NCBI GenBank assembly: GCA_010671905.1
Contig: JAAHII010000001.1
Location: 4,712,001-4,776,000, forward strand
Source of the DNA: Leptolyngbya sp. SIOISBB
GTDB taxonomy: Bacteria; Cyanobacteriota; Cyanobacteriia; Phormidesmidales; Phormidesmidaceae
Reading direction: 5' to 3'
Length of the DNA: 64,000 bases
Below, piece by piece: positions 284 to 26,588 of this stretch. A model generated the notes under the pieces. That model had not been told where the DNA came from and searched no databases. It was given only the letters and a program-made list of their open reading frames with translations. Each line of letters starts with the position of its first letter. Positions within the stretch are counted from its first letter, which is position 1. A program made the position numbers and the translations under genes.

Positions 284-285
284 CG

Positions 286-10796: not shown

Positions 10797-10798
10797 GA

Positions 10799-11387: not shown

Positions 11388-11557
11388 TGCAGCCAGTAGC
11401 CAAGCAAATCCTCGGCATCACAAAGAAACGTCGTGAGGCACTCGACGAGCTGACCACTCAAATACTTGACAGTTCTGACTGTCCCTCTGAGTGGCGGGAA
11501 TTGGTACTCGAAGTGAATTTCACCTATCCGGCCCGCAAGGGTAAGGAGGTGCCATGA
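11387..11557 (+). CDS. 56-residue prophage protein, copy 1 of a duplicated family
   Basis: MQPVAKQILGITKKRREALDEL-type N-terminus, then a basic end with ARKGKEV. The gene at 23801-23971 encodes the same protein with about 80 percent identical residues. In both places it overlaps the preceding stop and is near the end of an operon. All-helical; function unknown. Confidence 0.65.
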   Translation: MQPVAKQILGITKKRREALDELTTQILDSSDCPSEWRELVLEVNFTYPARKGKEVP

Positions 11558-12759
11558 GAAGGTATTGTGTTGCTCGATAAATCAGCCCATAGAACCTGGA
11601 AACCCCCCTCACCATATCGGCAAGGGGGTTTCGTTTTGGGGTTAACTAGGGCTCTCGGAGTCCTTAGCCAGCCCTCGTAGTGCTCGACAGTCTTTTTGAG
11701 GCGATCGGCAAACTGGTACAAGTCATCGACCTTCCCGAGATCGACTTTTTCTTCATTTTTGCCTTCAACCCCATGATCGAACAGGCCAAGACGCAGTCTC
11801 TCAGGGTTGTTGAAATAGAACCTGCAAATTGGTTTACGGTTATTGTCGTCCAAAAGGATGCCGCAGTAAGTCATCACATCCCGCATCGCAACTCTTGACG
11901 CCTCAATGCTTTCTCTCAGGATGGACTTAACGATGTACCAGCCCTCTAGCTCCTCTTCTGTGGTGACGACTCCATTGGAGCTTTGATCTTCGTCTTCGGA
12001 TGGTGACTCTGCAGCCTGCTCAGGTTCAGTCGATCCAGACTCGGCAAGACTGGATGCTGACTGCAATAACCCACTGATTTGTTCGCGGATAAATTGTCGG
12101 AAAGCTCTTTTAACAAAGCCTTCAAACTCTTCTTTGACGCGCTCGGTGATCCTGCCTGGATAGACCTGGGCGGCAAAGAAGCGGATAAATTCATCAGAGG
12201 GAGCATTTAACTCATCGGTAAGGATGCGCTGAATCTCCCGTGTATACTTCAATTCGCTGGCTGTGGTAAGAATCTCCTCTATGTCAAAGGATTGCTTGCT
12301 GAGTCTTTTTAATTCAGCAATTGCCCCATCCTGAAGATTGAGCATATCAATCTCTAGAAAAGGCTTTTCATCCAGCTTATTGGGCTCTACTAAGTCTGAA
12401 TAAAACCGATACATGAGGCCATTGGTGAGAACCCCGATTCTCGCCTTGGTCGCTGCAAAGTAGTGGAATAGCTGACTATGTGCATCGTCGTTTGCAAGCT
12501 TGTCGGCATGATGCTTGCACTCAATCAGGATAATTGGCTTGCCGTCCTGAATGATTGCGTAGTCTAACTTGTACTTCCTGCTAGCTCCAACATTGGCATC
12601 GAATTCTGGCACCACCTCATTGATGTCAAAGACGTTGTAACCTAGCGCCTGAATGAAGGGCATGATCAGGCTTGTTTTAGTTGCTTCCTCGGTTTTTATC
12701 CGATCCAATTGAGAGGAAAGGTTTGAGGATAAAGCTTTAATTTGATCTATAAAGTCCAT
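11524..12759 (-). CDS. HsdR N-terminal-like nuclease-domain protein
   Basis: 411 residues as read. Residues about 25-150 match the type I restriction R-protein N-terminal domain: TKTSLIMPFIQALGYNVFD, a conserved D in YKLDYAII and the ECK core in IILIECKHHAD, the PD-(D/E)xK nuclease signature. A helical region, an acidic linker (SEDEDQSS) and an all-beta C-terminal domain follow. No methylase or specificity subunit is beside it. The last 35 residues run through a terminator hairpin; a one-base shift at 11672-11674 would end the frame at 11642, just before the hairpin. Probable defence-related cargo. Confidence 0.75.
   Translation of the reverse strand: MDFIDQIKALSSNLSSQLDRIKTEEATKTSLIMPFIQALGYNVFDINEVVPEFDANVGASRKYKLDYAIIQDGKPIILIECKHHADKLANDDAHSQLFHYFAATKARIGVLTNGLMYRFYSDLVEPNKLDEKPFLEIDMLNLQDGAIAELKRLSKQSFDIEEILTTASELKYTREIQRILTDELNAPSDEFIRFFAAQVYPGRITERVKEEFEGFVKRAFRQFIREQISGLLQSASSLAESGSTEPEQAAESPSEDEDQSSNGVVTTEEELEGWYIVKSILRESIEASRVAMRDVMTYCGILLDDNNRKPICRFYFNNPERLRLGLFDHGVEGKNEEKVDLGKVDDLYQFADRLKKTVEHYEGWLRTPRALVNPKTKPPCRYGEGGFQVLWADLSSNTIPSHGTSLPLRAG
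11598..11637 (+). terminator. Intrinsic terminator after the 10873-11557 operon
   Basis: AAACCCCC and GGGGGTTT arms around a loop of about 15 bases, followed by TTTCGTTTT on the plus strand. It lies 40 bases after the stop of 11557. The convergent HsdR-N-like frame reads through this hairpin, which argues that its true end is upstream of it. Confidence 0.7.
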
Positions 12760-12892
12760 AAGGTTTTAGATGATAATTGAACGCTATTCGTCTTCGCCAA
12801 AGAACTGCTTTTCGCTGAATGGAGGTTGTTAATGATCGGGGGTAGGAGTGTTGAGAAACCCTAGGTTTATAGCTTGGGGCTTTACGCAAAAC

Positions 12893-13016
12893 TCACTCCG
12901 TTTGCTTTGTTTCTTCTAGTTCTTCCAGAGTTTCTTGAATTTCGTCAGCAGCATCTCTCATCAAACGCAACAATTCCAGCAATTCCCCACTTAGCTAATC
13001 CAGATAGCTTCTCCAT
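12893..13016 (-). CDS. Small helical protein with a frame break
   Basis: ATG 13016 follows an AGGATAAGGAT ribosome site 32 bases after the stop of 13049. Eight codons (MEKLSGLA) read in one frame and the rest (GELLELLRLMRDAADEIQE to TGA 12895) in the next. Losing one A at 12991-12992 joins them into about 40 residues of acidic coiled coil. Whether it is a real gene is uncertain. Confidence 0.35.
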
Positions 13017-13048
13017 ATCCTTATCCTGTAAAACGAGATTTATAGTGG

Positions 13049-14089
13049 CTAGAATTGAATCCAACCAGCTACCGTCAGAACCAAAACCGCCGCATCAGAA
13101 ACCTGTTGATCCGCCAAGTATTCTTCATCAGAAATTTCCATAAGCAATGCATCGATACCGTTGGCTAGATCTTGTGCCAGCGGTTTGATGTCTTCAGGGG
13201 TTCTAGCTTTGGCGGCAATCTCTGGTATAAGTTGGCCATCGTTCCCCAACGCAGCCAGCATGTCTGCACTGGTTGCTAGCTTATTTGCTGAGGAAGCGTT
13301 TTTCCATTGCAGGGTATTGGCCTGATGAAGAGTTCCGCCTTTGTACCATTCCTCTTCTGCTCGTTTTAAGTCCCGAGCTTCAATAAAGCGAGTATGAGCA
13401 ATTTCCTCATTTGCCTTATACTCGGCCAGCTTGGCCTGAGCCTCACTATATTGGGGGCTTTCTGGCGGAATTCTCTCCAGTGAATTCAATGCTTTGCGCC
13501 ATTCAGAAACTACGTTCCTCCAATCACTTTCAGATTCAGCAGTGCTTGCAGAGATGGCGGCTGTTTCTCCAGCCTCAAGGGCATTCCCCCAGTGGTCAAT
13601 CTCAGGCTCTGTACTTTCAGTTTGACCCGAAGTAGTTTGTGATGAAGCATTATTAAGTGCAGAGATCACAGTGACTCCCCCCACGGTTAAGGCTCCCATG
13701 CAAATCAGGCCAGCAACACCGACGCTAATTGCGATAGGCCTCGGCAAGCCGAAAAGCGTAGGGCGTTTTTGGGGACTGGTAATAGGCGCTGAAGCCTCAG
13801 CGCTTGAGATCTTCCATTTGTCTTGCCATGCAGCACCCCGCCCGATCGCCTCTGCCTGCAGGGCTACATCGGTGAACCCTTTCGGAGCGATCGTCTGAAT
13901 CCCCTTTTTTATTTTTGTGGCCAAGCTTTGTTCGGGGGGCTGTTGGCCGCTGACTCGTATTTTGAGCAATGAACCGGAATTGGTCACTCGCACAGTCACG
14001 TTTTCCGACGAAAACGACTTATTCATTAAGGCTTCTAGAGCTTTGGTGTCACCATCCTTTGCTGCCTGTAGCGTTAGCGTTGCTGACAT
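13049..14089 (-). CDS. Membrane-anchored protein with N-terminal cyanobacterial domain
   Basis: 346 residues from ATG 14089 (MSATLTLQAAKDGD), preferred over the longer form because this is the usual start of the domain. Residues 1-90 are the small alpha/beta domain seen at the N-terminus of many cyanobacterial proteins (LQAAKDGDTKALEALMNKS). One transmembrane segment follows (about 120-145, PIAISVGVAGLICMGALTVG), then a long charged helical part. Function unknown. The small helical gene at 13016 follows it on the same strand. Confidence 0.7.
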   Translation of the reverse strand: MSATLTLQAAKDGDTKALEALMNKSFSSENVTVRVTNSGSLLKIRVSGQQPPEQSLATKIKKGIQTIAPKGFTDVALQAEAIGRGAAWQDKWKISSAEASAPITSPQKRPTLFGLPRPIAISVGVAGLICMGALTVGGVTVISALNNASSQTTSGQTESTEPEIDHWGNALEAGETAAISASTAESESDWRNVVSEWRKALNSLERIPPESPQYSEAQAKLAEYKANEEIAHTRFIEARDLKRAEEEWYKGGTLHQANTLQWKNASSANKLATSADMLAALGNDGQLIPEIAAKARTPEDIKPLAQDLANGIDALLMEISDEEYLADQQVSDAAVLVLTVAGWIQF

Positions 14090-14824
14090 GATGAGTACCT
14101 GTAGGAAGGTTATCCAAGTTTTCACGGATGCCGCCCAAAGATCAGCATTTCACAACCATTGAAAAAATCCACGGTTACGAATTGGAGCGTTAGTTTCTCT
14201 TGCTACCCAAACAAGCACTAACTATCGAATCAAATAAATGGACTCCGTGAATTCGCCATTAGCCGCACTTGGCGCGACAAAAATCCTTAACAGAGTAGAT
14301 TCCTGCTTAACAGGAAGGTAAAACCTTTGCGAAGTATCGGGGTATACCTTCTGTCCAGAATTAAATCCATTTGATTGATGGGTTATGTTTTTGGCTAATG
14401 CAGCTCTTTATTGCAGTATTTTTAGGTGGGTGCTGTCGAGATGTGCATGTGAAGTTCAGGTGCTTGTGAGTGGGATCACCTAAGAGTCAGAGCGGAAGTC
14501 CGTAAGGTTTTGATAAAGCCAGAAAACAAAACATCCCCTTGAACTGGCGGGGTTTTAGGAAGACTATTCAAGACTGCTTCTATTTTGCAGCGTCAGGGTG
14601 CCGCCTCGTTGTCATTGCACAAAGACATGTTTACTACTCAAAAAGCCTTTATAAACACTGCACAACACGAGATCTGCACTTTGTCGCCAGAGGCAGCTGA
14701 CTCAAAATGGCGATCGTATTGCAGCAAACCACAGGCTCATCACCTTACAGTATTGGTGGAGGCGGCAGGCTCAAAAAGGCTTTGGGCTAGTTCACTTAAT
14801 CGACGCCGCTCCGAAGGGGCATCA
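14090..14824. other. Gene-poor stretch upstream of the PAS-like gene
   Basis: No convincing gene. An imperfect CCCC/GGGG hairpin followed by TTTT lies near 14531-14555. The frame of the PAS-like protein is open back to 14585, but without a ribosome site or protein-like composition. A promoter for 14089 should lie in its left part. Confidence 0.4.
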
Positions 14825-15208
14825 ATGACAGAATTACAAAGCCTATGGGCCAGTAGTCACGATGACTACTGGCAAGGGCTAACCGAGACCGCGTTTATCT
14901 ACAGCAGTGATAACGACTTTCAGTGCTTAGCAGTACGTTCTCCGTTGGGGGATCGCAGGCTGAATAGAAATGATTGTCTAGGTAAATCACTGAATTACCT
15001 AGATCCAGAGATAGCTAATCCACGAATCGAGGCAATCAAAGAAGCCCTGGCGATTCGCGAAACGATCACCTACGAATACAGTCACTACTGGGATAACTTG
15101 ACTTGGGAGTTTGTTTGTGAAGTAACTCCCCTGGCAGGTTTTGATGAGGTACTGGTGACCATTGCCGACAAGCATGAATGGCAAAAAGAGTATTGGGCTA
15201 AGCAATGA
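14825..15208 (+). CDS. PAS-like sensor-domain protein
   Basis: 127 residues from ATG 14825. The layout TAFIYSSDNDFQCLAV, then NDCLGKSLNYLDPE, IEAIKEALAIRETITYEY and FVCEVTPLAGFDEVLVTIAD follows the strands and helices of a single PAS fold. There is no output domain. Its stop overlaps the end of the convergent repressor gene by 11 bases. A small ligand- or partner-sensing protein next to a repressor suggests a role in induction, which is inference. Confidence 0.6.
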   Translation: MTELQSLWASSHDDYWQGLTETAFIYSSDNDFQCLAVRSPLGDRRLNRNDCLGKSLNYLDPEIANPRIEAIKEALAIRETITYEYSHYWDNLTWEFVCEVTPLAGFDEVLVTIADKHEWQKEYWAKQ

Positions 15209-15917
15209 TGCTCTTGCCGTTTTTCTTCCAAGGGGACTGATAGGAGATGCTGCCTTCAGATAACCCTTGGGCGTAGTCGGTCGTCCATTTGTCGTCCCCC
15301 GTGAAGGTCGCTATCAAATAAGCGATCGCAGCGTCTTCTGGCTCGGTCGTTTCTACAATCCCAAAAACAATATCCCGCAGGCGCTGTTGACTCATTTCAG
15401 GTGCTTTGCGGTAGCCCATGCCGCCTTGGTCGATCGGAGTCGTAAATAACTGGTGCAAAGTGCTGATAGTGGAATGATCACGCCAGTCCATTCCGGCTAC
15501 CCATATCGCATCTTGAATCGCTCTCGATAGCGCAGGCATCGACCAGTCGGGTTGGATTACCCGTGAAGTTTTTGATTGCTCCAAAAGCTCTGCAATAGCC
15601 GCCTCTAGCTCCTGCACTCGATCTTCGAGGGTGGGAGATTTTGTTGTTTTGAGCCACTCCCCTGTGCGAAGCCAAGATTGCAACTCCCCAACTGAGCGCC
15701 CCTCCATTTTTGCCATCGCAGACAAGCTTTCTAGACTGATCTCTGTTTTGAGGGGACGGTTACGCCAGTCACTGATCGTTGTCCTGCTAACCCCAAGCGC
15801 TGAAGCGAGGCGCGAGTAATTCATCCCAGGCTTGTCAGCTTGGGACTCGATCCACTCCTTCAAACGCGATTGGTAGTCGGAAATTGTCAAGGCAACTGTT
15901 AGGTCATCTAACAACAT
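15198..15917 (-). CDS. XRE-family phage repressor
   Basis: 239 residues from ATG 15917. The helix-turn-helix lies at residues about 33-56 (YSRLASALGVSRTTISDWRN). A coiled segment (LEDRVQELEAAIAELLEQ, about 97-115) may serve for dimerisation, and the C-terminal half is a domain I do not recognise, with no LexA-type Ser/Lys protease motif visible. An operator (15897-15913) overlaps the first codons, so translation may in fact begin at a TTG near 15890. It is divergent from the early operon at 16011 and is its probable repressor. Confidence 0.8.
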   Translation of the reverse strand: MLLDDLTVALTISDYQSRLKEWIESQADKPGMNYSRLASALGVSRTTISDWRNRPLKTEISLESLSAMAKMEGRSVGELQSWLRTGEWLKTTKSPTLEDRVQELEAAIAELLEQSKTSRVIQPDWSMPALSRAIQDAIWVAGMDWRDHSTISTLHQLFTTPIDQGGMGYRKAPEMSQQRLRDIVFGIVETTEPEDAAIAYLIATFTGDDKWTTDYAQGLSEGSISYQSPWKKNGKSIIA

Positions 15918-15993
15918 TCAAGCATTAACCACTAAAAATCTCTGCCCGCTCGGTTGACATTCCAGCTAACAATATGCAAGATCATGTTAGCTG
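15897..15993. promoter_or_regulatory. Operators of the second repressor switch
   Basis: Two inverted repeats share the half-site TGTTAG/CTAACA: TGTTAG-N5-CTAACA at 15897-15913, and CAGCTAACA (15963-15971) with TGTTAGCTG (15985-15993). A TTGACA box (15954-15959) lies just before the second repeat, so binding would block the rightward early promoter; the -10 is weak. Confidence 0.6.
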
Positions 15994-16010
15994 AGTTAAC
16001 ACTTTCGCTG

Positions 16011-16178
16011 ATGCAGACAAATGTTCGTTTTTACAGGGCGAAACTCAACCTACTCAATGGCTTGGCTGCGTTGAGCGGAAAAAGCGTGGCCGAGTACCTG
16101 GGCGACTTGGTTGAGCGCGACGCCAAAGAAAGAGGGGTGCCGATTCCCAAGCCCACCCAGCCCGCCGAGGCTGCGTGA
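16011..16178 (+). CDS. Small RHH-like protein at the start of the early operon
   Basis: 55 residues from ATG 16011. The N-terminal strand (TNVRFYRA) and following helices (LNLLNGLAALSGKSVAEYLGDLVE) match the shape of ribbon-helix-helix DNA-binding proteins. As the first gene right of the operators it could be an antirepressor or Cro-like factor. The fold call is tentative. Confidence 0.5.
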   Translation: MQTNVRFYRAKLNLLNGLAALSGKSVAEYLGDLVERDAKERGVPIPKPTQPAEAA

Positions 16179-16214
16179 GTGCGACGACGTGAACCCATTT
16201 AGACGGAGGAATTG

Positions 16215-16529
16215 ATGGACGCATTACTCGCATTGTTTTTGATTTTTGTCGTAGCGCTGCCGTTGTCAGCAGTGCTGAACGGATGGGCCTTGATAAATCT
16301 GTGGGGTTGGTTTGTGACCCCCTTATTCAGCCTGCCTGAGCTAACGATGGGCTACGCAATTGGGCTGGGCATGGTGGTTTCTTTTCTGACCTACCACTAC
16401 GACACCTCATCCAGCAACAACAGCAAAGAATCGGCGCTGGCTATTGCCTCTGGTGCCTTGGTCGCCACCGTTTTGAGGCCCACTATCACTGTTTTTGTCG
16501 GTTGGGTCGTCTACCAAATTTTTCTCTAA
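16215..16529 (+). CDS. Small membrane protein of the early operon
   Basis: 104 residues from ATG 16215, preceded by GGAGG five to six bases upstream. Three or four hydrophobic segments (about 3-25, 30-55, 70-100) make it an integral membrane protein. No family recognised. Superinfection exclusion or holin-like roles are possible but unsupported by motif. Confidence 0.6.
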   Translation: MDALLALFLIFVVALPLSAVLNGWALINLWGWFVTPLFSLPELTMGYAIGLGMVVSFLTYHYDTSSSNNSKESALAIASGALVATVLRPTITVFVGWVVYQIFL

Positions 16530-16583
16530 AGCAAAAACCCCCGCCGTGCGATGGCGAGGGCTGTAAAACCACAGGTAATAATC

Positions 16584-16934
16584 ATGCAAAACCTTTGTAC
16601 TAGCAGGGTAGCACAGCCCTGCGAAACTGATTCCCCGCCCCGGTACACCTTCCGGGAAGCGCACGAAGAAAACCCAATGGCCGAGCTGGTCGAACTGTTC
16701 CCCGGTGGCTTTGCGGTCGAATTTTGGAATACCGAATTCGCCAGGGTCTTGGTTCATCCCGACTTTGTGATGACCGATAGCCTGCTCACTGCTATCTCCG
16801 ATCAGGGTGGCGATGTACCCCCCGCTGTTTTCTGGGCCTGGAACGACCACGGCGCTATCTGCGTGGCGTGGCATTGGCTAGAGCTCGTCACCGACTGCGA
16901 GTACGACGCAGTTGAGGAGGTGGCGGCGGCATGA
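16584..16934 (+). CDS. Early phage protein, copy 1 of three tandem paralogues
   Basis: 116 residues from ATG 16584. Its second half (MAELVELFPGGF, then SDQGGDVPPAVFWAW and AICVAWHW) lines up with the two following genes in spacing and in the terminal Trp-containing strand. The paralogy is remote. It overlaps the next gene by four bases. Function unknown. Confidence 0.55.
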   Translation: MQNLCTSRVAQPCETDSPPRYTFREAHEENPMAELVELFPGGFAVEFWNTEFARVLVHPDFVMTDSLLTAISDQGGDVPPAVFWAWNDHGAICVAWHWLELVTDCEYDAVEEVAAA

Positions 16935-17191
16935 AAACCCTCCGATGCCAATACACCCAAAACGCTTTAATGCGGGCAATCAACGGACTTAATGTCGGCG
17001 GCTGGAAGCCCGTTGCTGATGAGTACAACCTCTACCAAGTGCCCGTGACCGAGGCCGAGCGTTCCGTTATCTGCGTCGCCTTGCGCTGCGACGGCATTCC
17101 CTCAGAGACGCGACGTCGTTGGTCAGAGCGGGGCGAGCTGTGGATTCCTCACTACTGGACGATGCCCCTCGCGGGCGTGGGGGCGGCATGA
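16931..17191 (+). CDS. Early phage protein, copy 2 of three tandem paralogues
   Basis: 86 residues. LMRAINGLNVGGWK at the start and GELWIPHYW near the end align with LAHIINQLNPNGFE and HELWIPAAW in the next gene. It is coupled on both sides by ATGA overlaps. No known family recognised. Confidence 0.6.
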   Translation: MKTLRCQYTQNALMRAINGLNVGGWKPVADEYNLYQVPVTEAERSVICVALRCDGIPSETRRRWSERGELWIPHYWTMPLAGVGAA

Positions 17192-17475
17192 CACAGACCA
17201 CCCACGAAGCGACCTTTTACCGCTGCAACTTCGATCACCCGCTCGCTCACATCATTAACCAACTCAATCCCAATGGCTTTGAGTATCTGGGTAAAACCAG
17301 CGCGGGCAAATGGATTCAGATCGCCTACGACACCGACGAACGCGCCGCCATACACGCGGCGATTCATTGCGCTGATACCCCGCCCATTACTCGTTACGCC
17401 TGGGATGACGCGCTCTTAGAGCATGAATTGTGGATTCCCGCCGCCTGGTGCGAGGAGGTGCAGCATGCCTCGTAG
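17188..17475 (+). CDS. Early phage protein, copy 3 of three tandem paralogues
   Basis: 95 residues from ATG 17188, which overlaps the previous stop. It shares the helix LAHIINQLN, the central strand and the ELWIP-x-x-W end with the gene before it. Small tandem paralogues in phage early regions are often host-takeover or anti-defence factors; no direct evidence here. Confidence 0.6.
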   Translation: MTQTTHEATFYRCNFDHPLAHIINQLNPNGFEYLGKTSAGKWIQIAYDTDERAAIHAAIHCADTPPITRYAWDDALLEHELWIPAAWCEEVQHAS

Positions 17476-18259
17476 AAAAGGCGGAACCGTCACCCCCCAC
17501 GGCGAAATCCATAAGCGTTTCAAGCGCAGAGACATCGCCGATCAGGTGATGGGCCTGTTGAAATATGCCGATAAAACGCCGGAACAACTGATCATTGCCC
17601 TCGGCATCAACCGCTGGGACAACAGAGCCAAGGCGACTCAGCAGCAAGAGTTGTGCAAGGAGATGGACGCCCTGATCAAGCGGCGCGGACTCCCGATCAC
17701 CAAAACCGAAGCCCCCGGACGAGGCGCTCAGCCCAAGTACGGACTAAGTCGCCAACGCACCCAACGAGTGCAGGCTGAGCCCACTCTCAAGACCTGCATC
17801 GACCCCGCCCTCAAAGGCACTTGGAGCGCTGACCAAAAAGACGCCCACCGCGACAGGAAGAAAGCGGCTTGGGCCGAGAAAGCGCAGCTCATGGAGGCTG
17901 ATTCCAAGGCTCAACGGGCCGATATGCGGAAGCGCCTTCAGCCCAAGTCCGAGAGGAAAACTCAGGCATCTACCAAGGCTCGTAAACCTCGCACTCCTAA
18001 ACCGGCAGTAGCGCCCAAACCCGCTGCGACGGGACGCCCGCGCAAGGTGAGTCGTGGCCCCACTGAGGCCGTACGGATGCAGCTAGAGCCCAAAATCCTG
18101 CGATTACTCAGGACTCAGGGCAACGTCACCGAGGCTCAAATGCGTCGTCGTCTTGGGGCCGCTGCTGTTGAGGTCGCCAAGGCTATGACCGGCGTGGACT
18201 CCGGGCAGTTGGGGGTGGGGCGCTTCTTTTACCTGTCAGAGGAGGCGAGTGTATCATGA
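17465..18259 (+). CDS. Basic early phage protein with winged-helix-like C-terminus
   Basis: 264 residues from ATG 17465; a longer form would overlap the previous gene in another frame. Residues 20-90 are helical, 140-200 are a Lys/Arg/Pro/Ala-rich linker, and the C-terminus (EPKILRLLRTQGNVTEAQMRRRL, ending GRFFYLSEE) resembles a winged helix. Probably DNA- or RNA-binding. Coupled to 18256. Confidence 0.55.
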   Translation: MPRRKGGTVTPHGEIHKRFKRRDIADQVMGLLKYADKTPEQLIIALGINRWDNRAKATQQQELCKEMDALIKRRGLPITKTEAPGRGAQPKYGLSRQRTQRVQAEPTLKTCIDPALKGTWSADQKDAHRDRKKAAWAEKAQLMEADSKAQRADMRKRLQPKSERKTQASTKARKPRTPKPAVAPKPAATGRPRKVSRGPTEAVRMQLEPKILRLLRTQGNVTEAQMRRRLGAAAVEVAKAMTGVDSGQLGVGRFFYLSEEASVS

Positions 18260-18555
18260 CCCGTTTTGAAATCGTCGATCGCGCCATCCTTTCCGCCCTG
18301 CAGTTTGGCAACGACAGCGGCTATTACACGCTAGGCGACTGGCTACGTGACTGTCGGCATGTGGGCCTGTTCATCGTTGCCGTACTGCTGAACTGGCGAC
18401 TCCCGGACGACCCGGAGCATCTGCTGATTGACGAAACCACCGGGCCGTTTTGCTCAGAGGTGTCTTGCTACATAGGGACTTCACAGACCATCGAAGTCAA
18501 ATGGTTTGGGCACCCGTGGCTACCCGTTTACATGATTTCCATCTACCCAAGCTAG
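18256..18555 (+). CDS. Small hypothetical early phage protein
   Basis: 99 residues, start overlapping the previous stop (ATGA). Contains SALQFGNDSGYYTLGDWLRDC and an aromatic-rich C-terminus. Not recognised. A terminator follows directly, so it ends the first transcription segment of the early region. Confidence 0.55.
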   Translation: MTRFEIVDRAILSALQFGNDSGYYTLGDWLRDCRHVGLFIVAVLLNWRLPDDPEHLLIDETTGPFCSEVSCYIGTSQTIEVKWFGHPWLPVYMISIYPS

Positions 18556-18597
18556 CCTCTGGAGCCTCGCATCTACACTCCAGAGGCTCCTTTTTTC
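18554..18597 (+). terminator. Strong intrinsic terminator inside the early region
   Basis: AGCCTCTGGAG (18554-18564) and CTCCAGAGGCT (18578-18588) form an 11-bp perfect stem, followed by CCTTTTTTCTTG. It separates 16011-18555 from the replication segment, so the latter needs read-through, antitermination or its own promoter in 18597-18626. Confidence 0.85.
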
Positions 18598-18626
18598 TTG
18601 CTTTCAACTGAGAACTGAGAAACGTC

Positions 18627-18827
18627 ATGAATATCAAAATTCCGCCCTGCCCAGGCAAGCTGCCGATTGAGAAGCCGGACATCGAACGCTGGTTACTGGG
18701 CCTATACGGCGTTCGCCCCGTCGTGGAGCGCGACGGCGACGGCTGGGTGTGCTCATGGCCAGATCCCGAGCCAGGTGGCTTCGTCGAAATCCCTTGGGGC
18801 TCACTCCATACAGCAGAGGTGAAGTGA
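18627..18827 (+). CDS. Small hypothetical early phage protein
   Basis: 66 residues, ends one base before the primase start. Contains IERWLLGLYGVRPVVERDGDGW and VEIPWGSLH. Not recognised; its linkage to the primase suggests a role in replication. Confidence 0.55.
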   Translation: MNIKIPPCPGKLPIEKPDIERWLLGLYGVRPVVERDGDGWVCSWPDPEPGGFVEIPWGSLHTAEVK

Positions 18828-18828
18828 C

Positions 18829-20280
18829 ATGGTGACAACGCCTCTGTACCCCAAACACCCCCACGGCAAACGACTAGCCGAAATATTTAACTACGGCTGG
18901 AAATGGCTATCCACCCCCAACGACGGGGGGCGCACCGCCTGGACAACGAACGACGATTATCCCCTTAAGCCGCGCACTCTCTGGAAGCGCTGGCAAGACA
19001 TGACCGAAATCATCGGCGTGCGGTTTGGTCGTCTCACCCGCTACGCCATGCTCGATATCGATGCTGGTAGCGAATACCTCGAAATGCTGCCCCAAATCAA
19101 GATGGCCCTCGAAACCATCGGCATTGTCCGCACCATCTTTCTTCGGTCGAGTTGGAGCGGTGGCCTGCACATATACATCCCCCTGCCTGCGGAGTTTTCT
19201 ACTTTCTCAGTCGCTTGTGGCCTCCGTCAGTGCTTAGAAGCTCAAGGGTTTGTGGTCGCTAACGGACAGCTCGAAATCTTCCCAAATGAAAAAGCTTACT
19301 CCCGCCCTTGGCGCGGCGAAAAACCGACCGAGTACAACGGTCATCGTCTACCGTTGCAGCCCCACAGTGGAGCCTGTCTACTAGACGACGACCTGCAATC
19401 GATGGGCAACGACATCGCCGTCTTTTGGGCGATGTGGGATAACGCTGTAGTCATGAACGACGCCCAAGACATCATGTGGGCCTTGTCGACAGCTCGCAAC
19501 AACCGGCGTAAACATCGCCGTCAGGCCACTGGCCCTGCTCAAGAGTGGCAGCAAGACCTCGAAGCCATCATCCGCGAAGGCTGGACCGGCCCCGGTCAAA
19601 CTAACAAAATCCTCAAAGAGATTGCCACCTACGGCAGAGTCTTTGAAAAGCTCTCAGGACACGAGCTAATCATCTACATCGCCACCACTGCTTTTGACTG
19701 CCCTGGCTATCTAGAGCACTGCCAGCACAAACACGAGATTGAACGCCGCTGTCGAGCGTGGGGCATGGCCGTCGAGAAATACTACTGGCCCCTGGGCGAT
19801 GAACCCCTGAGAGAGCGCAAATCCTTTGGTGACATCTGCCAGCAACGAGCCAATGACGCCCGCGATCGCATCGCAGACGCAGTGAAATGGCTACGACAGC
19901 AGATGCAAGGCTTCAACATCAAACAGATGGTCGCCGCCATCTGTAGAGAAGCCCGCTGCAGCCCCAACACCCTCTATAAAAACCGTGATTTATGGCACCC
20001 CGACGGCGAAAAACCATCAGAGGGTGTAACCCCTTCCAGTGTAAGCGATCCAGCCGAATTAGAGGCGGTGCAGCGTCAAGTTAGGGAATCGCTTGAAAGC
20101 GTTGGTGCGTGGGAGGTTACACCCAAGGGGGGGAGAGATGAAGTGTATATCTTGAAGTCGCCCCATTTAAAAAACTTATCTCCGGAAGGGGAAAAGAGGG
20201 GGTGTGGGGGAGAAAAGGGGTTATCCACAGGGTGGTCACCCCTGAATGGCTGGAAAGAGGGGGGCGTCGACGATGTCTGA
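18829..20280 (+). CDS. AEP-type primase / replication protein
   Basis: 483 residues. MLDIDAGSEY (about 74-83) supplies the D-x-D metal site and RSSWSGGLHIYIPLP (about 105-120) the S-x-x-G-H-h-h-h pattern of archaeo-eukaryotic-type primase-polymerases. The rest is a helical region, and a basic HTH-like part near residues 350-390 (FNIKQMVAAICREARCSPNTLYKNR). No helicase Walker motif is present, so helicase must come from another gene or the host. It starts the replication/modification segment and overlaps the next gene by eight bases. Related proteins occur on cyanobacterial plasmids and phages. Confidence 0.7.
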   Translation: MVTTPLYPKHPHGKRLAEIFNYGWKWLSTPNDGGRTAWTTNDDYPLKPRTLWKRWQDMTEIIGVRFGRLTRYAMLDIDAGSEYLEMLPQIKMALETIGIVRTIFLRSSWSGGLHIYIPLPAEFSTFSVACGLRQCLEAQGFVVANGQLEIFPNEKAYSRPWRGEKPTEYNGHRLPLQPHSGACLLDDDLQSMGNDIAVFWAMWDNAVVMNDAQDIMWALSTARNNRRKHRRQATGPAQEWQQDLEAIIREGWTGPGQTNKILKEIATYGRVFEKLSGHELIIYIATTAFDCPGYLEHCQHKHEIERRCRAWGMAVEKYYWPLGDEPLRERKSFGDICQQRANDARDRIADAVKWLRQQMQGFNIKQMVAAICREARCSPNTLYKNRDLWHPDGEKPSEGVTPSSVSDPAELEAVQRQVRESLESVGAWEVTPKGGRDEVYILKSPHLKNLSPEGEKRGCGGEKGLSTGWSPLNGWKEGGVDDV

Positions 20281-20605
20281 CACTGCCCCAGCTACTAAAC
20301 CACTAGTCCGTCCTACCCCACCTCAAAATCTCAGTGGTTTGATTGGTCGGATTGAGGCTGTTTTCAGGCTGCTAGCTCGTTACGATTCCAGCTTTGGCGA
20401 GAACGGCTATGGCGCGGAAGGCGACGCGGCGGTGTGCGAAGGGTGGCAGCACCCGATTATCAAAACTTACTTGCGGTCCAAGGGTTACCAAGATCGCCAC
20501 GACTGGACTGAGCACGATCTGGATGGGTTGTACTTCAACCTGGTCAAACTGCTGGGTCGCTACGAGGCAACCGCATGCCTTCTCAAGCGGGAGGTTGTCT
20601 CATGA
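20273..20605 (+). CDS. Hypothetical early phage protein
   Basis: 110 residues from ATG 20273, with a G-rich ribosome site eight bases upstream. Helical, with IGRIEAVFRLLARYDSSFG and LYFNLVKLLGRYEA. Not recognised. Both ends overlap neighbours. Confidence 0.55.
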   Translation: MSDTAPATKPLVRPTPPQNLSGLIGRIEAVFRLLARYDSSFGENGYGAEGDAAVCEGWQHPIIKTYLRSKGYQDRHDWTEHDLDGLYFNLVKLLGRYEATACLLKREVVS

Positions 20606-20850
20606 CTCCCGCCGAACGCATCACCGCTGCCGCCGCCTGGTATGGCCGACACCGTGCCGAGCTGCCCAGCGCCCCATTCCAGCTCAGTCAGGGTGTCAGG
20701 GTCTCCGAACCCACCCGGTTCTACGCTGCTCTGGATGAGGCGATATCCGGTTGGCAGACGAAGCGTGAAACCAGTCGCCTTGATGTTTGTCACATCCTTC
20801 TGCCCATGCGCAAACTTCGCGCCTATTTGGAGAAAGGAGGTGCAACGTGA
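20602..20850 (+). CDS. Small hypothetical early phage protein
   Basis: 82 residues starting at an ATGA overlap. Helical (ERITAAAAWYGRHRAEL). Not recognised. Its stop overlaps the methyltransferase start (TGATG). Confidence 0.55.
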   Translation: MTPAERITAAAAWYGRHRAELPSAPFQLSQGVRVSEPTRFYAALDEAISGWQTKRETSRLDVCHILLPMRKLRAYLEKGGAT

Positions 20851-21662
20851 TGCAGTTGGCTCTTCCCTCTCTATCTTTTCCCCATCGTCCACCACTGCGT
20901 TATTTCGGTGGTAAGTGGCGCATGGCCCCGTGGTTGCTCAAGCAGTATCCACTGCATCGCAACTATGTCACGCCCTACGGCGGTGGGTGGTGCGAGTCCT
21001 TTCAAAAAACTCGAGCCGGTGGTGTGGAGGTTTACAACGATCTCAACCACAGCACCGTCAACTTTTTCACCCAACTGCGCGACCACCCAGACATCCTGAT
21101 TCCCGCTATTGAAGCGACCGAGCGGAATCGAGCTGAATTTATCCGTAGCCGAAAGCCCGCTGAAAACCTCATTGAGCAGGCAAGACGCTACTACATCTAC
21201 TGCCATCTCAGTGTGATGGGTGGGGGCGGGCCTTTGTGGTCAGGCACCAGCGCGGATCGGCTCGAGGTGAAAGCGATTAAGGATGATTCTCATCTCTGGA
21301 CTGCATCCGAACGGTTGCAAGGGGTTCGCATCGAGCAGCAAGACGCGCTGGAGTGCATCGCTAAATACGACGACTCAAAGACGTTGTTTTACTGCGATCC
21401 GACCTACCCCAAGCAGTCGCTCGCGAGCGGGAACCGGACTTGGTATCTGCACCACATGCCAGATGAGCATCATCGAAAACTGGCAGCACTGCTGAGTCGG
21501 ATTGAGGGTGCGGCAGTTGTGAGCGGCTATGACTGTCCGCTCTACCAAGAAATCTTTGCCGGATGGAAGCGCGTCGAACGTCGCACCACAAACATGCAGC
21601 GTAAGCAGGCACTTGAATGCATCTGGATAAAGGAGGCCCGCCATGCCAGAACAAAGCACTAA
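20850..21662 (+). CDS. D12-class DNA adenine methyltransferase
   Basis: 270 residues from ATG 20850. RYFGGKWRMAPWLL (about 17-30) is the F-x-GGK AdoMet site of Dam-like D12 enzymes and LFYCDPTYP (about 180-188) is the catalytic motif IV, here DPTY instead of the usual DPPY. No restriction partner is present, so it is probably an orphan methylase that protects phage DNA. It overlaps the next gene by 20 bases. Confidence 0.85.
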   Translation: MQLALPSLSFPHRPPLRYFGGKWRMAPWLLKQYPLHRNYVTPYGGGWCESFQKTRAGGVEVYNDLNHSTVNFFTQLRDHPDILIPAIEATERNRAEFIRSRKPAENLIEQARRYYIYCHLSVMGGGGPLWSGTSADRLEVKAIKDDSHLWTASERLQGVRIEQQDALECIAKYDDSKTLFYCDPTYPKQSLASGNRTWYLHHMPDEHHRKLAALLSRIEGAAVVSGYDCPLYQEIFAGWKRVERRTTNMQRKQALECIWIKEARHARTKH

Positions 21663-21957
21663 AGAGCGATTGATGGGCTATCCAAAGGAGATTTTGGTCG
21701 ATTACATGCTCGACGGGCCGCTGCTTTTCCAGATTGACTTCAAAAAACTTGAGTGGCGAAAGCTCCAACTGAGAAGGCGAAAGCTTTTGGACGAATTCCG
21801 AGCGCTCCTAGATGTGCCAACCAAGCCACGGTCGAAATGGTTTCAGGCTCATGAACGTATAGACCAAATTCAGGCGCAGCTTGAGCGTCTGGAGGCAAAA
21901 ACTGACAGCCTTTTATGGCCTGAAAAAGAGGAGGTAACCCATGCCGATGGACCGTAG
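21643..21957 (+). CDS. Hypothetical early phage protein
   Basis: 104 residues, mostly one long charged helix (KKLEWRKLQLRRRKLLDEF, then ERIDQIQAQLERLEAK). Probably a small coiled-coil. Lies between the methylase and the HNH gene and overlaps both. Confidence 0.55.
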   Translation: MPEQSTKERLMGYPKEILVDYMLDGPLLFQIDFKKLEWRKLQLRRRKLLDEFRALLDVPTKPRSKWFQAHERIDQIQAQLERLEAKTDSLLWPEKEEVTHADGP

Positions 21958-22405
21958 CCTCTACCCGCCCAACTGGGAAGCGATCGCCCTCGAAAAGAAG
22001 ATCGCCGCCAACTGGACATGTGAGCACTGCGGGCGACCGTGCCGGAAGCCTGGGGTCGGCTGGATGGACTTTGTTCTGTTCCTGCTGAACTCAGAAGGCA
22101 TGGACGGGTGGTATGCCCAGACTTATGAGGAAACAGCCGACGGCGGAACTGTCGAAAAGCCGCAGCGGTTCACCTTGACCGTTGCGCACCTTGACCAAGA
22201 TCCTAAAAATAACGACCCCAGCAACCTCGCAGCGCTGTGTGCGCCCTGCCATCTGAACCACGATCGCCCCTACATCCTGCTCAATCATCGCCGCAAGCAG
22301 GAGCGGCGGGGACAGCTTAATCTGTTGGACCCCCCCCTGTTCCCCGAGCCTGCGGGGCACGGGAAAGACCCGAAGGCGGTGCAGCACCCAATCTGGAGGA
22401 CTTGA
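21941..22405 (+). CDS. HNH endonuclease-like protein
   Basis: 154 residues. CEHCGRPCRKPG supplies the first zinc Cys pair, TVAHLDQDPKNNDPSNL the H and N residues, and ALCAPCHLNHD the second Cys pair and final His of an HNH nuclease. Phage copies may act in packaging, homing or nicking. The 3' end overlaps no gene; a cytosine methylase follows four bases later. Confidence 0.8.
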   Translation: MPMDRSLYPPNWEAIALEKKIAANWTCEHCGRPCRKPGVGWMDFVLFLLNSEGMDGWYAQTYEETADGGTVEKPQRFTLTVAHLDQDPKNNDPSNLAALCAPCHLNHDRPYILLNHRRKQERRGQLNLLDPPLFPEPAGHGKDPKAVQHPIWRT

Positions 22406-22408
22406 GTG

Positions 22409-23083
22409 ATGCATCGCAAACCGCGCTTACTGGATTTGTTTTGCTGTGCTGGAGGGGCAGGTATGGGTTACTCCAATGCTGGCTTTGAAGTTGTCGGCGT
22501 TGATATACGCCCACAACCTCGTTACCCATTCGCGTTTCATCAGTCAGACTGGCAAACGTTTCTTGATGAGCATTGGCAAGAACTTGACGTCTTACATGCC
22601 TCGCCGCCATGTCAGGGTTACTCAGTCCTCAAGAGCCTGAGTAAGTCCAATGCGCCACTACTAATTCCGGCTGTTCGGGCGGCCTTCAAGGCAACTGGCA
22701 AAAGCTATGTGATCGAAAATGTCCCGGGTGCGAAGCGGGATCTAGTCAACCCGTTGACCCTTAGAGGTAATCAGTTTGGTTTGCGCGTGATCCGCGACCG
22801 ACTGTTTGAGGTCAACCCGTTTCTGTTGTCCCCTCCCTTGGTTCCCGTAAATGGCTCCACAAAAAGCCATCGAGGGAAAAACAGGCTTCATGACGGCGCT
22901 GAATACATAACAGTGACCGGGCATTGTTTTTTGGTCGAAGAGGCGCGCAGGGCTATGGGAATTGATTGGATGACCCAGGATGAACTTGCTCAGGCAATTC
23001 CTCCTGCTTACACCCAGTGGATCGGTGAACAGCTGATGAGAGTGTGCAGTGGGCGAGTTGAACAAACCTTGGAGGTGCTCTGA
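22409..23083 (+). CDS. DNA cytosine-5 methyltransferase (small phage type)
   Basis: 224 residues from ATG 22409 (a GTG three bases earlier is the alternative). LDLFCCAGGAGMGY is AdoMet motif I, SPPCQGYS holds the catalytic Cys, and VIENVPG is motif VI. At under 230 residues the target recognition region is very short. It is a second orphan methylase beside the adenine enzyme. Confidence 0.85.
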   Translation: MHRKPRLLDLFCCAGGAGMGYSNAGFEVVGVDIRPQPRYPFAFHQSDWQTFLDEHWQELDVLHASPPCQGYSVLKSLSKSNAPLLIPAVRAAFKATGKSYVIENVPGAKRDLVNPLTLRGNQFGLRVIRDRLFEVNPFLLSPPLVPVNGSTKSHRGKNRLHDGAEYITVTGHCFLVEEARRAMGIDWMTQDELAQAIPPAYTQWIGEQLMRVCSGRVEQTLEVL

Positions 23084-23244
23084 TGCACTACTGCCCCCGC
23101 TGCGGACATGCCTGCAACTGCAATGGCGACACCGAAGAGCGCTGCCAGCATGAATGCGATCCACGCGATCCGCCACTACAGAGCAAACCAGACACCGAGC
23201 AACGCAACCTACTCGACAAAGCCCTGATGAGGTTTCTGAAATGA
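23083..23244 (+). CDS. Small Cys-rich zinc-finger-like protein
   Basis: 53 residues starting at the overlap with the previous stop (TGATG). CPRCGHACNC and CQHEC give six cysteines and two histidines in the first 25 residues, so a zinc-binding knuckle is likely. It overlaps the ASCH gene by four bases. Confidence 0.6.
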   Translation: MHYCPRCGHACNCNGDTEERCQHECDPRDPPLQSKPDTEQRNLLDKALMRFLK

Positions 23245-23801
23245 ATCCCAAAATAATTACCCTTTGGCAGCCGTGGGCTTCGCTTGTCGCCTATGGATTC
23301 AAGCAATACGAAACTCGATCATGGGCAACTAATTATCGTGGACCGCTGCTTATCCATGCGGCCAAGCGCCCATTTGTACATCCGACATCTGGCAAGGTTC
23401 TCTGTAGAGACTCAGATCGCGCTTGGTTGGATGCCTTGGACTTGGCCTACGAGGGCGGAATCATTGACGATCAAATGCGGTTGCCAGACCAGACGCGGGT
23501 GCCGTTCTCGCATGAGCTTCCCTTGGGGGCAGTAGTCGCGATCTGCAACCTGAGACAGTGCGAACGAATGAGGCTAGGTGTGGGTGGCTATGTTGCTCCA
23601 ATACACGAAATCCAAATCGACCGAGTTTCTGAATTAGAGCGAGCGGTTGGCAATTGGACTTCAGATCGCTACGCCTGGAGACTCTCCAAAGTTCAACGCC
23701 TTGCAATGCCAATCACCTGGAAGGGTGCGCAGGGTTTGCGGAATGCACCACCCGAGCTGCTCTCTCTAGTGAAAGTCGCCTACAAAGGGAGGGTAGCGTG
23801 A
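23241..23801 (+). CDS. ASCH-domain protein
   Basis: 186 residues from ATG 23241. LWQPWASLVAYGFKQYETRSW followed by RGPLLIHAAKRP and LGAVVAICNL is the typical ASCH/PUA-like fold with its conserved G-x-K-x-x-E-x-R core. ASCH proteins bind RNA or modified nucleosides, and phage copies are common, but their role is mostly unknown. It is coupled to the small gene at 23801. Confidence 0.8.
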   Translation: MNPKIITLWQPWASLVAYGFKQYETRSWATNYRGPLLIHAAKRPFVHPTSGKVLCRDSDRAWLDALDLAYEGGIIDDQMRLPDQTRVPFSHELPLGAVVAICNLRQCERMRLGVGGYVAPIHEIQIDRVSELERAVGNWTSDRYAWRLSKVQRLAMPITWKGAQGLRNAPPELLSLVKVAYKGRVA

Positions 23802-23971
23802 TGCAACCCGTAGCAAAGCGAATTCTCGAAATCACCAAAAAACCTCGCGAAGCACTCGACGAACTAACCGAGCTAATGCTTGCCAGTCCTGATTGTCCCC
23901 CTGAGTGGCGGCGGCTGGTGCTTGAGGCGAATTTTACCTACCAGGCTCGCAAGGGTAAGGAGGTTGCGTGA
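23801..23971 (+). CDS. 56-residue prophage protein, copy 2 of a duplicated family
   Basis: MQPVAKRILEITKKPREALDEL-type start, then a PEWRRLVLEANFTY helix and ARKGKEV end. It is the paralogue of 11387-11557. It starts on the ASCH stop (GTGATG) and its stop overlaps the next GTG start, so it is tightly coupled. Confidence 0.65.
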   Translation: MQPVAKRILEITKKPREALDELTELMLASPDCPPEWRRLVLEANFTYQARKGKEVA

Positions 23972-24132
23972 AAATTAAACTGCGAATCACCAAAAGCGGG
24001 AGTCTGTGGCTCATGGTGAGATTCGGTCCAAAATTCAAGCCCTATTTTTTATTCACCTACGATTCTCACTCTGTTGCCGGTGACGGCTACACAATTATTG
24101 ATTTGAAGCTGCTCCTGTCTCCCGGCTGCTAG
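23968..24132 (+). CDS. Small hypothetical protein at the end of the early operon
   Basis: 54 residues from GTG 23968, overlapping the previous stop (GTGA). Mostly beta-strand (MKIKLRITKSGSLWLMVRF). Its last four bases overlap the convergent recombinase stop. Coding is supported by coupling and composition only. Confidence 0.5.
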   Translation: MKIKLRITKSGSLWLMVRFGPKFKPYFLFTYDSHSVAGDGYTIIDLKLLLSPGC

Positions 24133-25445
24133 CGCAGCACCACCCTAACCACGTCGGCCCCCAACACATCCACCCGCGCCACTAATTGAGAGTAAACGTC
24201 GCGTCGTTCCTCGGCTGACATGGCCGCCCACTGTTCCTGCTTCATCATTGCCAGTGCCTGTATCAACTCCATCCGCTCTGCACCCGTCACCGTGTCCCGA
24301 TCTGCAGCGGTTTTTAGTTGTTCAATCTCCAGTTTCAACCCCTCGATCGCATCCGCCACACCCGGCACATGGGCCAGCTTTCGTAGCTGGGTAAGCTCCC
24401 GTTCCTTTTCCGCCACCGCTGGGTTTACCGTGTCCTTGCCCCCTTCTGAGAGGACATCCGCCACGGCCTCAGCGGCGTCGGCGATCGCTTCCTGGATAGC
24501 GGCTTCCACCCATAAATCTCGACAGTACTTTCGGGGTGCATTGCACGAGCCATCTCGCAGGGAGCAGCGGTAATAGCAGTAAAAATAGCGGCCATGGGTT
24601 GAGACCTTTACCGCTAGCGACCTTCCGCAGTCCTGGCATCGACACAAATTACTTGGAACTGGATAGATTCGCCCCTTATTGCGCCCCCTCAGGCGGCGAT
24701 TCTGCTCTAGTTGGCGCTTTATTTGCTGCCACTCACTTTCTGTGATTAGCGGTTCATGGGTGTTGTAGAAGATTTCTTCACGATGCTTGCTATGTCCCCG
24801 GATAGCAGGATGTTTCAGCCATGCGATCAGCCCATGCCGTGACTTGCGAGTACCCTGCTCGGCCAACCAGCGACAAATGCCGTTGATGGGCTCGCCGTTC
24901 ATGAAATGTTCAACAGACTCGCGGCAGATTTGCCAGTCCTTGCTAGGCACCCAGTGAGACTTATCCGTGCTGTGCTGATAGCCCCAGATCGGTCGATTGC
25001 TGGTGGGGCGGTGCTTGAGTTTGCGAGCATCATACGCCCGTCGAGATCTCCCACTCAGCTCGATCGAATAGTAGTGAGCCATGACGCTTTTCATACTCGT
25101 GGAGATAAAGCCATCAGCCGTCATCAGCGTCAGAGGCTGTCCAGTAGTGGTTTCAATAACCAAAACGCCAGCATCTTCCAACCGCTTCAGCGTATCTAGC
25201 GCGAATGCAGTATCTCTAGCCCATCGCGACCATTCAATGACCAGCACATGAACGTCGTGTCTATGTTCGCGAAGCTCTAATGCTCGCTCCGTAAGCTTTG
25301 CAAACTCAGGGCGATCTCGTTTTCGACCTGAGACCCTCTCTTGAAATAGCTCGTCATACCCCAACGACTCGAACTGCCCGATCTGCAATTCGATATTCTG
25401 GTCTTGAGAGGACACCCGAGCATAAGCCAGTCGGTATAGTGCCAT
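24129..25445 (-). CDS. Large serine recombinase (integrase/excisionase of the element)
   Basis: 438 residues from ATG 25445; a GTG eight codons earlier is possible. The N-terminal resolvase domain has YARVSSQDQ with the catalytic Ser12, WSRWARD and a SGRSRRAYDARKLK helix. A recombinase domain, a zinc ribbon (CRCQDCG with paired C in YYRCSLRDGSCNAP) and a long coiled coil (AVAEKERELTQLRKL) follow, as in XisF/phiC31-type enzymes. It lies about 65 bases from the comM junction, the normal place for an integrase, and should catalyse integration and, with a directionality factor, excision. Confidence 0.9.
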   Translation of the reverse strand: MALYRLAYARVSSQDQNIELQIGQFESLGYDELFQERVSGRKRDRPEFAKLTERALELREHRHDVHVLVIEWSRWARDTAFALDTLKRLEDAGVLVIETTTGQPLTLMTADGFISTSMKSVMAHYYSIELSGRSRRAYDARKLKHRPTSNRPIWGYQHSTDKSHWVPSKDWQICRESVEHFMNGEPINGICRWLAEQGTRKSRHGLIAWLKHPAIRGHSKHREEIFYNTHEPLITESEWQQIKRQLEQNRRLRGRNKGRIYPVPSNLCRCQDCGRSLAVKVSTHGRYFYCYYRCSLRDGSCNAPRKYCRDLWVEAAIQEAIADAAEAVADVLSEGGKDTVNPAVAEKERELTQLRKLAHVPGVADAIEGLKLEIEQLKTAADRDTVTGAERMELIQALAMMKQEQWAAMSAEERRDVYSQLVARVDVLGADVVRVVLR

Positions 25446-25469
25446 GCACTCTACAAATGCAGCACCCAC

Positions 25470-25525
25470 AGCCTACGTCAATAGCGATTTGTCATAGTTC
25501 CATACACATTACTGCCCATAATAAC
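25470..25525. other. Right attachment site region (attR/attL) in comM
   Basis: On the minus strand comM coding matches its family up to the GGTTATTATGGG codons (about 25523-25512) and then stops in TAA 25511-25509. Beyond this the sequence is unrelated. The crossover must lie in or just before this point. Only one junction is in view, so the core dinucleotide cannot be defined. Confidence 0.7.
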
Positions 25526-26588
25526 CACAGGGGCAGGGATTGGTGCTAGAAATCAGGGTGAATTGGGCAGGAAATTCCACGGACTGACGAGTGCGGGTAA
25601 TCGTGACATGGCCGTCTTCTAGAGGCTGTCGTAGAAACTCCAGTACGTCTCGCTTGAACTCAGTCATCTCGTCCAAAAATAAGACCCCGCGATGGGCCAG
25701 CGAGATCTCTCCCGGTTTCGGAAAACTGCCCCCGCCGACAAGCGAAGGCCCAGATGCTGAATGGTGCGGGCTGCGAAACGGTCGGCTGGTGACCAGGCTG
25801 CCCTTTTCTTTCAGCAGCCCAGCGACAGAATGGATCTGGGTGACTTCCAATGCTTCTTCAAAAGAGAGGGGCGGCAAAATGCTGGGTAGGCGTCGGGCTA
25901 GCATCGTTTTCCCACTCCCTGGCGGTCCGACAAATATCAGATTGTGGCCTCCGGCAGCGGCGATTTCCAACGCGCGACGAGCTTGAGCTTGGCCTTTGAC
26001 GTCGCGCAGATCGAGTTGATTAGCATGGGCATTGGCGAGTTCTGCCTGACTGTCGAGCTGATAGGGTAAGTGCTGCTCGGGATGGTTCAAAAAGTCGGCG
26101 ATTTCGGTCAACTGCTTGAAGCCATAGACTTCGAGTCCAGGCACCACCGCAGCTTCCCGCGCATTGTCTGCAGGCACTACCACGCCTTTGATACCCAGAG
26201 ATTTGGCAGCAGCAGCGATCGCCAGCACCCCAGCCACTGGCCTTAAGGTCCCATCAAGTGACAACTCACCTAAAAAGAGCAACTCATTGAGCAAGTCTGG
26301 CTTTACCTGCTCTGTGGCGGCCAGTACTCCTACACTAATGGGCAGATCGAAACTGGGGCCTTCTTTACGTAAATCTGCCGGAGTCAGGTTGATCACAATC
26401 TTCCGCATGGGAAATGGAAAGCCCGAGTTTTTGAGGGCGGCGCGGCAGCGTTCGCGAGATTCCTGCACGGCGGTATCCGGTAACCCCACGACGACCATGG
26501 TGGGTAACCCCCCTGATAGGTCGACCTCAACGCCAACTTTGATGGCATCAATGCCGACGATCGCGGCACTCCAGATTCTCGATAGCAT
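25509..26588 (-). pseudogene. comM: comM (YifB-family Mg-chelatase-like AAA ATPase), interrupted by the element
   Basis: 359 residues, against about 510 for the family. The N-terminal Lon-like domain (residues 1-170), the P-loop GPPGSGKT (221-228) and the LFLDEM Walker B (about 305) are intact. The frame ends with NPCPCGYYG plus one residue, so the sensor and C-terminal lid domain (about 150 residues) are lost. ComM is a branch-migration helicase that helps integrate DNA taken up by natural transformation. The break coincides with the element border, so the rest should lie beyond the left end of the element. Confidence 0.9.

Follow-up and report, generated by a model that had tools for sequence, protein, structure and literature searches.

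The comM gene of Leptolyngbya sp. SIOISBB breaks off in mid-frame within the window analysed here (a stretch of 64,000 nucleotides, G000:C1:4712001-4776000, where G000 is the studied genome), and a gene for a large serine recombinase lies next to the break. This raises the question of whether a mobile element has been inserted in a competence gene, what kind of element this might be, and what its presence or removal would mean for the gene and for transformation of the host.

The split gene and its empty site

A preliminary description of the window held that comM stops at its NPCPCGYYG motif exactly at the edge of an element, and proposed that the rest of the gene be sought to the left of position 1 and that uninterrupted relatives be compared. 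All three points are borne out. Specifically, the 5′ part of comM abuts foreign DNA at a GG dinucleotide (25517-25516, minus strand), with which the codon following CGYY begins. The same part is 96% identical over residues 1-358 to the intact comM of G170, a genome of the same genus, which represents the empty site (...GGTTACTATGGCGACCC...) and places the crossover on this GG: the 5′ junction of the studied genome matches G170 through TATGG, the 3′ junction matches it from GGCGACCC, and only the GG is common to both junctions and the empty site at the crossover. The missing 3′ part was found about 36 kb to the left of the window, on the same contig and on the minus strand, as the sole match to PF13335 in a profile search of the whole genome (C1:4675489-4675782, in a frame of 158 codons), and the core-to-core distance between the two parts is 61,591 bp (61.6 kb).

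When the flanks are joined, comM comprises 509 codons with no stop, the same length as in G170, in line with the earlier claim that precise excision would restore the gene; comM frames of 523-541 codons with the full C-terminal domain occur in three other genomes of the genus (G388, G389 and G391). A short core repeat had also been proposed as something to seek at the far end. A long direct repeat is absent, the longest stretches shared by the junctions being 6 bp and lying off the crossover; a core of only 2 bp fits the expectation for a serine integrase. The junctions support the reading that an element with its own large serine recombinase has entered comM site-specifically and split it, and that precise removal of this element would rebuild the gene. 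The insertion would count as the disruption of a competence gene, as it lies in the comM coding sequence and the site is empty in relatives. The features of the locus are collected in Table 1.

Table 1. Features of the interrupted comM locus (plain numbers are window positions; E-values follow the profile names)
Feature	Position	Strand	Remarks
Right-hand part of the 61.6-kb prophage	1..25515		Remainder G000:C1:4675927-4712000
Tail completion / Neck1-like protein	1328..1846	+	phrog_26, 9.6e-11
Phage endonuclease-like protein with HSDR_N domain	11524..12759	minus	phrog_4225, 5.7e-114; PF04313, 2.2e-15
HTH repressor-like protein	15198..15917	minus	phrog_4, 6.2e-6; HTH_3, 2.6e-6; weak repressor matches
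D12-class adenine DNA methyltransferase	20850..21662	+	PF02086, 1.3e-15; phrog_56, 1.8e-47
C5-cytosine methyltransferase-like protein	22409..23083	+	PF00145, 2.2e-7, N-terminal match only
Large serine recombinase (integrase)	24129..25469	minus	ATG start 25445, GTG start 25469
Deduced attP right arm, 25 bp, element side	25491..25515	minus	Left arm G000:C1:4675927-4675951
Core dinucleotide, comM 5′/element junction	25516..25517	CC on +, GG on comM strand	Partner G000:C1:4675925-4675926, outside the window
comM 5′ part	25518..26588 (frame 25509-26588)	minus	357 codons to ...CGYY; Pfam Mg_chelatase, 7.4e-81; ChlI, 2.5e-47
comM 3′ part	G000:C1:4675468-4675926	minus	Outside the window, about 36 kb to its left
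Second (tyrosine) integrase, far from the att ends	L007:2208-3080		phrog_1, 1.2e-37; PF00589, 5.4e-17

Integrase, attachment sites and prophage genes

The recombinase gene adjoins the edge of the element, as the preliminary description had it, although what faces comM is the start of the gene, 46 bp (GTG) to 70 bp (ATG) from the core, and not its end at about 65 bases; the 3′ end lies about 1.4 kb inside the element, and the gene is on the same strand as comM and downstream of it. The protein is predicted to be a large serine recombinase, with a Resolvase catalytic domain (6.3e-19) containing the Ser and Arg motifs, followed by Recombinase (4.6e-9) and Zn_ribbon_recom (6.5e-6) domains, all above the Pfam cut-off, and its PHROG match is to integrase (3.6e-52). 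The Y-R-V-S motif and a later conserved Arg are kept, but Ser replaces the Asp beside the conserved Arg that is found in four aligned relatives and also in G636 and G667. The Asp in this position aids catalysis in serine recombinases. Close relatives are few: among 386 cyanobacterial genomes only the studied genome gave an integrase homologue at E <= 1e-30, none was found in viral_contigs, and a class scan of 388 genomes at E <= 1e-25 added only G636 and G667 (both 29% identity). Identity to the recombinases of G109 and G030 is 25% and 26%, respectively, and it reaches about 25-26% at most in the phage collection (best 20 of 99 matched records), while a search of solved structures returned resolvase/invertase catalytic domains only (8 sequences).

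The deduced attP is an imperfect dyad about the GG, with 19 of 25 positions symmetric; when arms were paired at random within the element, none of 200,000 pairs reached this value (maximum 18). Similarly, the best 22-bp arms in the junction windows are symmetric at 18/22 positions, a score that did not exceed 15/22 in any of 300 window pairs drawn at random. The deduced attB shows next to no symmetry (5 of 20 positions). Crossover at the central dinucleotide of a pseudo-palindromic attP of about 50 bp, as deduced here, is what a large serine integrase predicts.

As to the element itself, a simple gene finder made 66 gene calls, of which 40 were scanned with PHROGs and 21 of these matched. The matches include tape measure (1.9e-75), portal (1.3e-72), major head protein (9e-66), sigma factor (1.6e-25), terminase large subunit (1.5e-18), head morphogenesis (3.5e-16) and scaffold (9.2e-15), with weak matches to terminase small subunit and tail fibre, and Pfam adds an M23 peptidase and a phage tail lysozyme. 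With head, packaging and tail genes present, the element reads as the prophage of a tailed phage; no directionality factor was identified in it. A 57.8-kb IMG/VR contig encodes a relative of the major head protein with 79% identity, and further relatives occur in 6 other genomes of the 386 (best 55%). The IMG/VR contig was considered as the same element and rejected, given that it has no integrase match and that only 9 of 68 gene products match (E <= 1e-4).

The integrity of the prophage is less clear. The terminase large-subunit gene (L007:4520-7736) carries a LAGLIDADG insertion (7.2e-14) with intein-like ends at its ATP-binding (GCGK) stretch, and within this insertion it is split over two frames, which overlap at L007:5334-5380, which could mean either a defective phage or errors in base calling. 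Moreover, the head genes are on the plus strand, and the tape measure and subsequent genes are on the minus strand. Inverted repeats in pieces that are 89%, 90% and 85% identical (C1:4683975-4685588 and 4722089-4723379, the latter at 10089-11379 of the window) lie between the head and tape-measure blocks and bracket a prophage segment of about 36.5 kb that contains the head genes. This suggests a rearranged late operon, in which a flip of the 36.5 kb would set both blocks on one strand.

Beside these genes, an NB-ARC protein (PF00931, 3.1e-14) lies next to a TPR-repeat protein at 6678-8838 of the window and might be defence or exclusion cargo. PADLOC gave weak or generic matches only, for 3 of 10 element proteins, the NB-ARC/TPR pair yielding a generic TPR match only.

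Fate of comM and effect on transformation

Very probably, then, a temperate siphovirus-like phage has integrated in comM by way of a large serine integrase, in such a way that loss of ComM should lower transformation and that excision could restore the gene. The integrase of such a cyanophage would recombine its pseudo-palindromic attP with an attB over the NPCPCGYYG codons, with crossover at the GG. The ComM of the lysogen would be truncated after residue 358 and, separated from its conserved C-terminal domain, is expected not to function. Transformation with diverged or heterologous DNA would be lowered, not necessarily abolished, and the host would presumably be less able to remove the prophage by transformation. 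Excision, aided by a directionality factor, would restore comM without a scar, a product seen here on sequence alone.

The statement in the preliminary description that integration blocks transformation is too strong. Loss of ComM lowers transformation to a degree that depends on the kind of DNA: in Vibrio cholerae, one kind of DNA transforms less well by two orders of magnitude, whereas identical DNA is hardly affected (PMC11472951). An effect of the prophage on transformation is likely, though it would be graded. In the studied genome, the frames of comEC (781 codons) and dprA (370 codons) are open. The portion covered of a competence screen in S. elongatus, in which competence peaks around dusk and darkness, does not name comM (PMC7125226), a review of cyanobacterial competence gave no match for ComM or chelatase (PMC7690421), and no work on comM interruption in cyanobacteria was recognised among the titles and abstract openings in the literature searched.

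Both halves of comM are free of decay and under strong constraint, with neither half relaxed. Between the studied genome and G170, the 5′ half has a dN/dS of 0.010 and the 3′ half one of 0.025, values that are rough since dS (2.4 and 1.8) is near saturation; dN to G215 is 0.145/0.185 for the studied genome versus 0.139/0.197 for G170, so the former is no more distant than the latter. The absence of decay is compatible with recent integration or with ongoing use after excision, and the data do not discriminate between the two.

Other histories of the locus were weighed. The element could have arrived by the same integration route and since lost excision and virion production, leaving comM permanently gone in the lineage. 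This is a real possibility, albeit a somewhat doubtful one: the broken terminase frame, the division of the late genes between the two strands, separated by long inverted repeats, and the unusual Ser in the catalytic domain of the integrase are all what a frozen remnant might look like, whereas the attP arms, the reading frame of the integrase and the two halves of comM are all intact, and the halves show neither relaxed constraint nor an excess of dN to G215 over that of G170. That a spare copy of the comM 5′ part, or two misjoined loci, should account for the break is extremely improbable, and nothing speaking for either came to light. A second, intact comM, with the fragment as an old duplicate, was the case that the preliminary description had named against itself; the whole genome yielded no second comM, with one PF13335 match and one match to the 5′ part. 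The halves also join in a clean frame on a GG that is present in the intact gene, and a misjoin could not give rise to the attP dyad. Duplication and misassembly alike are refuted on the assembly by the single matches and the G170 junction.

At the opposite extreme, the host might excise the element under competence-inducing conditions and so regain comM, like the comK prophages or skin/SPbeta, with the integrase perhaps read from the comM promoter. The comM frame is precisely restored on joining, the integrase starts 46-70 bp beyond the core on the same strand as comM, the interval up to its start showed no terminator-like site on that strand (in a promoter/terminator scan whose matches were at chance level), both comM halves have a purifying signature, and a prophage excised in development provides a precedent (PMC4191935). 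Nevertheless, such a regulated switch is quite unlikely. Recent integration explains the constraint equally well, and serine integrases need a directionality factor for excision (PMC3783163), which means that read-through into the integrase alone would be insufficient. Furthermore, the integrases of G109, G030 and Nostoc sp. NMS8 are at the opposite edge of their elements and point against comM, which means that the co-directional arrangement is not general. A temperate phage, integrated in comM and able in principle to leave it, is still the reading preferred here.

comM as a target in cyanobacteria and in other bacteria

Several cyanobacterial mobile elements use comM as a target, this prophage among them. 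When 386 cyanobacterial genomes were scanned with PF13335, 352 gave a match, with short frames in several among the matches listed; further cases came from the order, of which 63 genomes were scanned (G419 and G423), and from the integrase search (G636 and G667). In draft assemblies, a short comM frame often reflects a contig end or a frameshift (e.g. G414, G444, G441 and G437), and the counts of splits are not a rate, with genomes overlapping between the comM scans and G636 and G667 having come via the integrase. In eight other genomes, comM is split on a single contig with a serine recombinase at one edge and halves 41-72 kb apart. The break is at the Walker B stretch (LFLDE, residues about 301-310) in G145 (halves 56 kb apart), G014 (41 kb), G030 (42 kb), G419 (61 kb) and G423 (47.5 kb), within NPCPC (350-354) in G109 (72 kb), and near FTLV (about 344-347) in G636 and G667, whose integrases are flush with comM and whose elements are about 56 and 54 kb long; the break in the studied genome is at residue 358. 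Four of the other comM recombinases, used to scan genome_contigs, led to 9 loci. Five of these directly adjoin a comM fragment, namely G030 and G419 again and, each covered from one side only, Nostoc sp. NMS8, a Pseudanabaena MAG and the SBLK MAG; the remaining 4 are without comM in the flanking DNA covered. Not every broken comM is of this kind: in G516 the gene is split near Walker A by an 8-kb insertion (L068:1490-9454, C1) with two tyrosine recombinases and a DUF6262 protein, which resembles Tn554; in G398 a 10-kb gap separates the halves, part of comM is missing and no serine recombinase was seen; and G374 has a stop in comM and no insertion.

Both of the closest integrase relatives, in G636 and G667, are themselves in comM near the stretch used in the studied genome, and so its integrase may be of an own comM-using lineage. 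In a recombinase tree of 13 rows, G109 (NPCPC) is sister to G145 (Walker B) with 100/100 support, which implies that the site used within comM can change. The Walker B recombinases do not come out as one group in this tree (4 changes, with 323 of 500 shuffles as low), in which the row of the studied genome is on a very long branch, and a single origin is accordingly not claimed for them.

The contents of the other elements are diverse. In that of G109, the 10 largest of 48 ORFs of at least 150 codons gave matches to helicase, ATPase and methyltransferase and none to a virion protein. The G145 element (10 of 37 scanned) yielded matches to a type ISP restriction enzyme, a KAP NTPase, a kinase and a subtilase, and a weak one to a coupling protein, that of G014 an RND efflux pump and a heavy-metal P-type ATPase at L034:8454-13969 (4 of 26 scanned), and that of G030 a D5-type primase and an AAA ATPase (3 of 29 scanned). 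By gene content, a phage nature is established for the element of the studied genome, and those of G109, G145, G014 and G030 are not shown to be phages. The G109 element also carries a second dprA-like gene (G109:C1:4040766-4041389; PF02481, 5.2e-67; 396 codons), so that a gene for DNA processing resides in an element which itself disrupts competence.

A bolder reading is that comM is a phylum-wide, multi-lineage hot spot, in which separate recombinase lineages settled on conserved AAA+ motifs of ComM (Walker A, Walker B and FTLV-CGYYG), since breaking comM would shield the element from transformational removal while precise excision would leave the option with the host. As it stands this is rather unlikely; if true, how far these lineages can be transformed would depend on whether the occupant of comM is excised. 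What appears new is the splitting of comM, with a serine recombinase at the edge, in eight further cyanobacterial genomes; mobile elements in comM of other bacteria are already known (PMC4774983, PMC11472951). The locus offers (i) a cyanobacterial counterpart of the comK/comM conflicts of other bacteria, with exact att sites, (ii) a deduced attP/attB pair for a cyanobacterial serine integrase, a possible genetic tool if active, and (iii) several recombinase lineages in one competence gene, which makes self-defence of elements against transformation testable in a phylum where, by the literature covered, ComM has hardly been studied.

Two comparisons drawn in the preliminary description, with comM as an insertion hot spot elsewhere and with the comK prophages of Listeria, prove apt: prophages are on record in comK, comYC and comFA, and several bacteria have mobile elements of other kinds in comM (PMC4774983). 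The comM elements of Aggregatibacter, Acinetobacter (AbaR), Mannheimia, Francisella and Pseudomonas have the same target and the same expected benefit to the element; they use one CF65_00446-like integrase family at one orthologous position, or are Tn7-like islands (PMC4774983, PMC11472951), whereas the cyanobacterial elements use large serine recombinases at several comM positions. The heterocyst interruption elements (nifD, fdxN, hupL and others) likewise have a recombinase at the edge and restore the gene by precise excision, but comM is absent from the 22 + 3 interrupted orthologs of Table 1 in that survey (PMC4874684). Of this parallel, which the preliminary description also drew, the sequence bears out the precision of excision and not its developmental control. 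SPbeta in spsM of Bacillus subtilis also rebuilds a host gene on excision through a site-specific recombinase (SprA, with SprB), in that case demonstrated and tied to sporulation (PMC4191935). Listeria A118 and LI share with the present prophage a large serine integrase, a competence gene as target, the restoration of this gene that excision would bring, and an attP of about 50 bp that is pseudo-palindromic around a central dinucleotide (PMC3556126, PMC3783163, PMC4774983). In contrast to both SPbeta and the Listeria phages, the prophage described here is known from its sequence alone, and it differs from the latter in residing in a cyanobacterium and in targeting comM, not the regulator comK.
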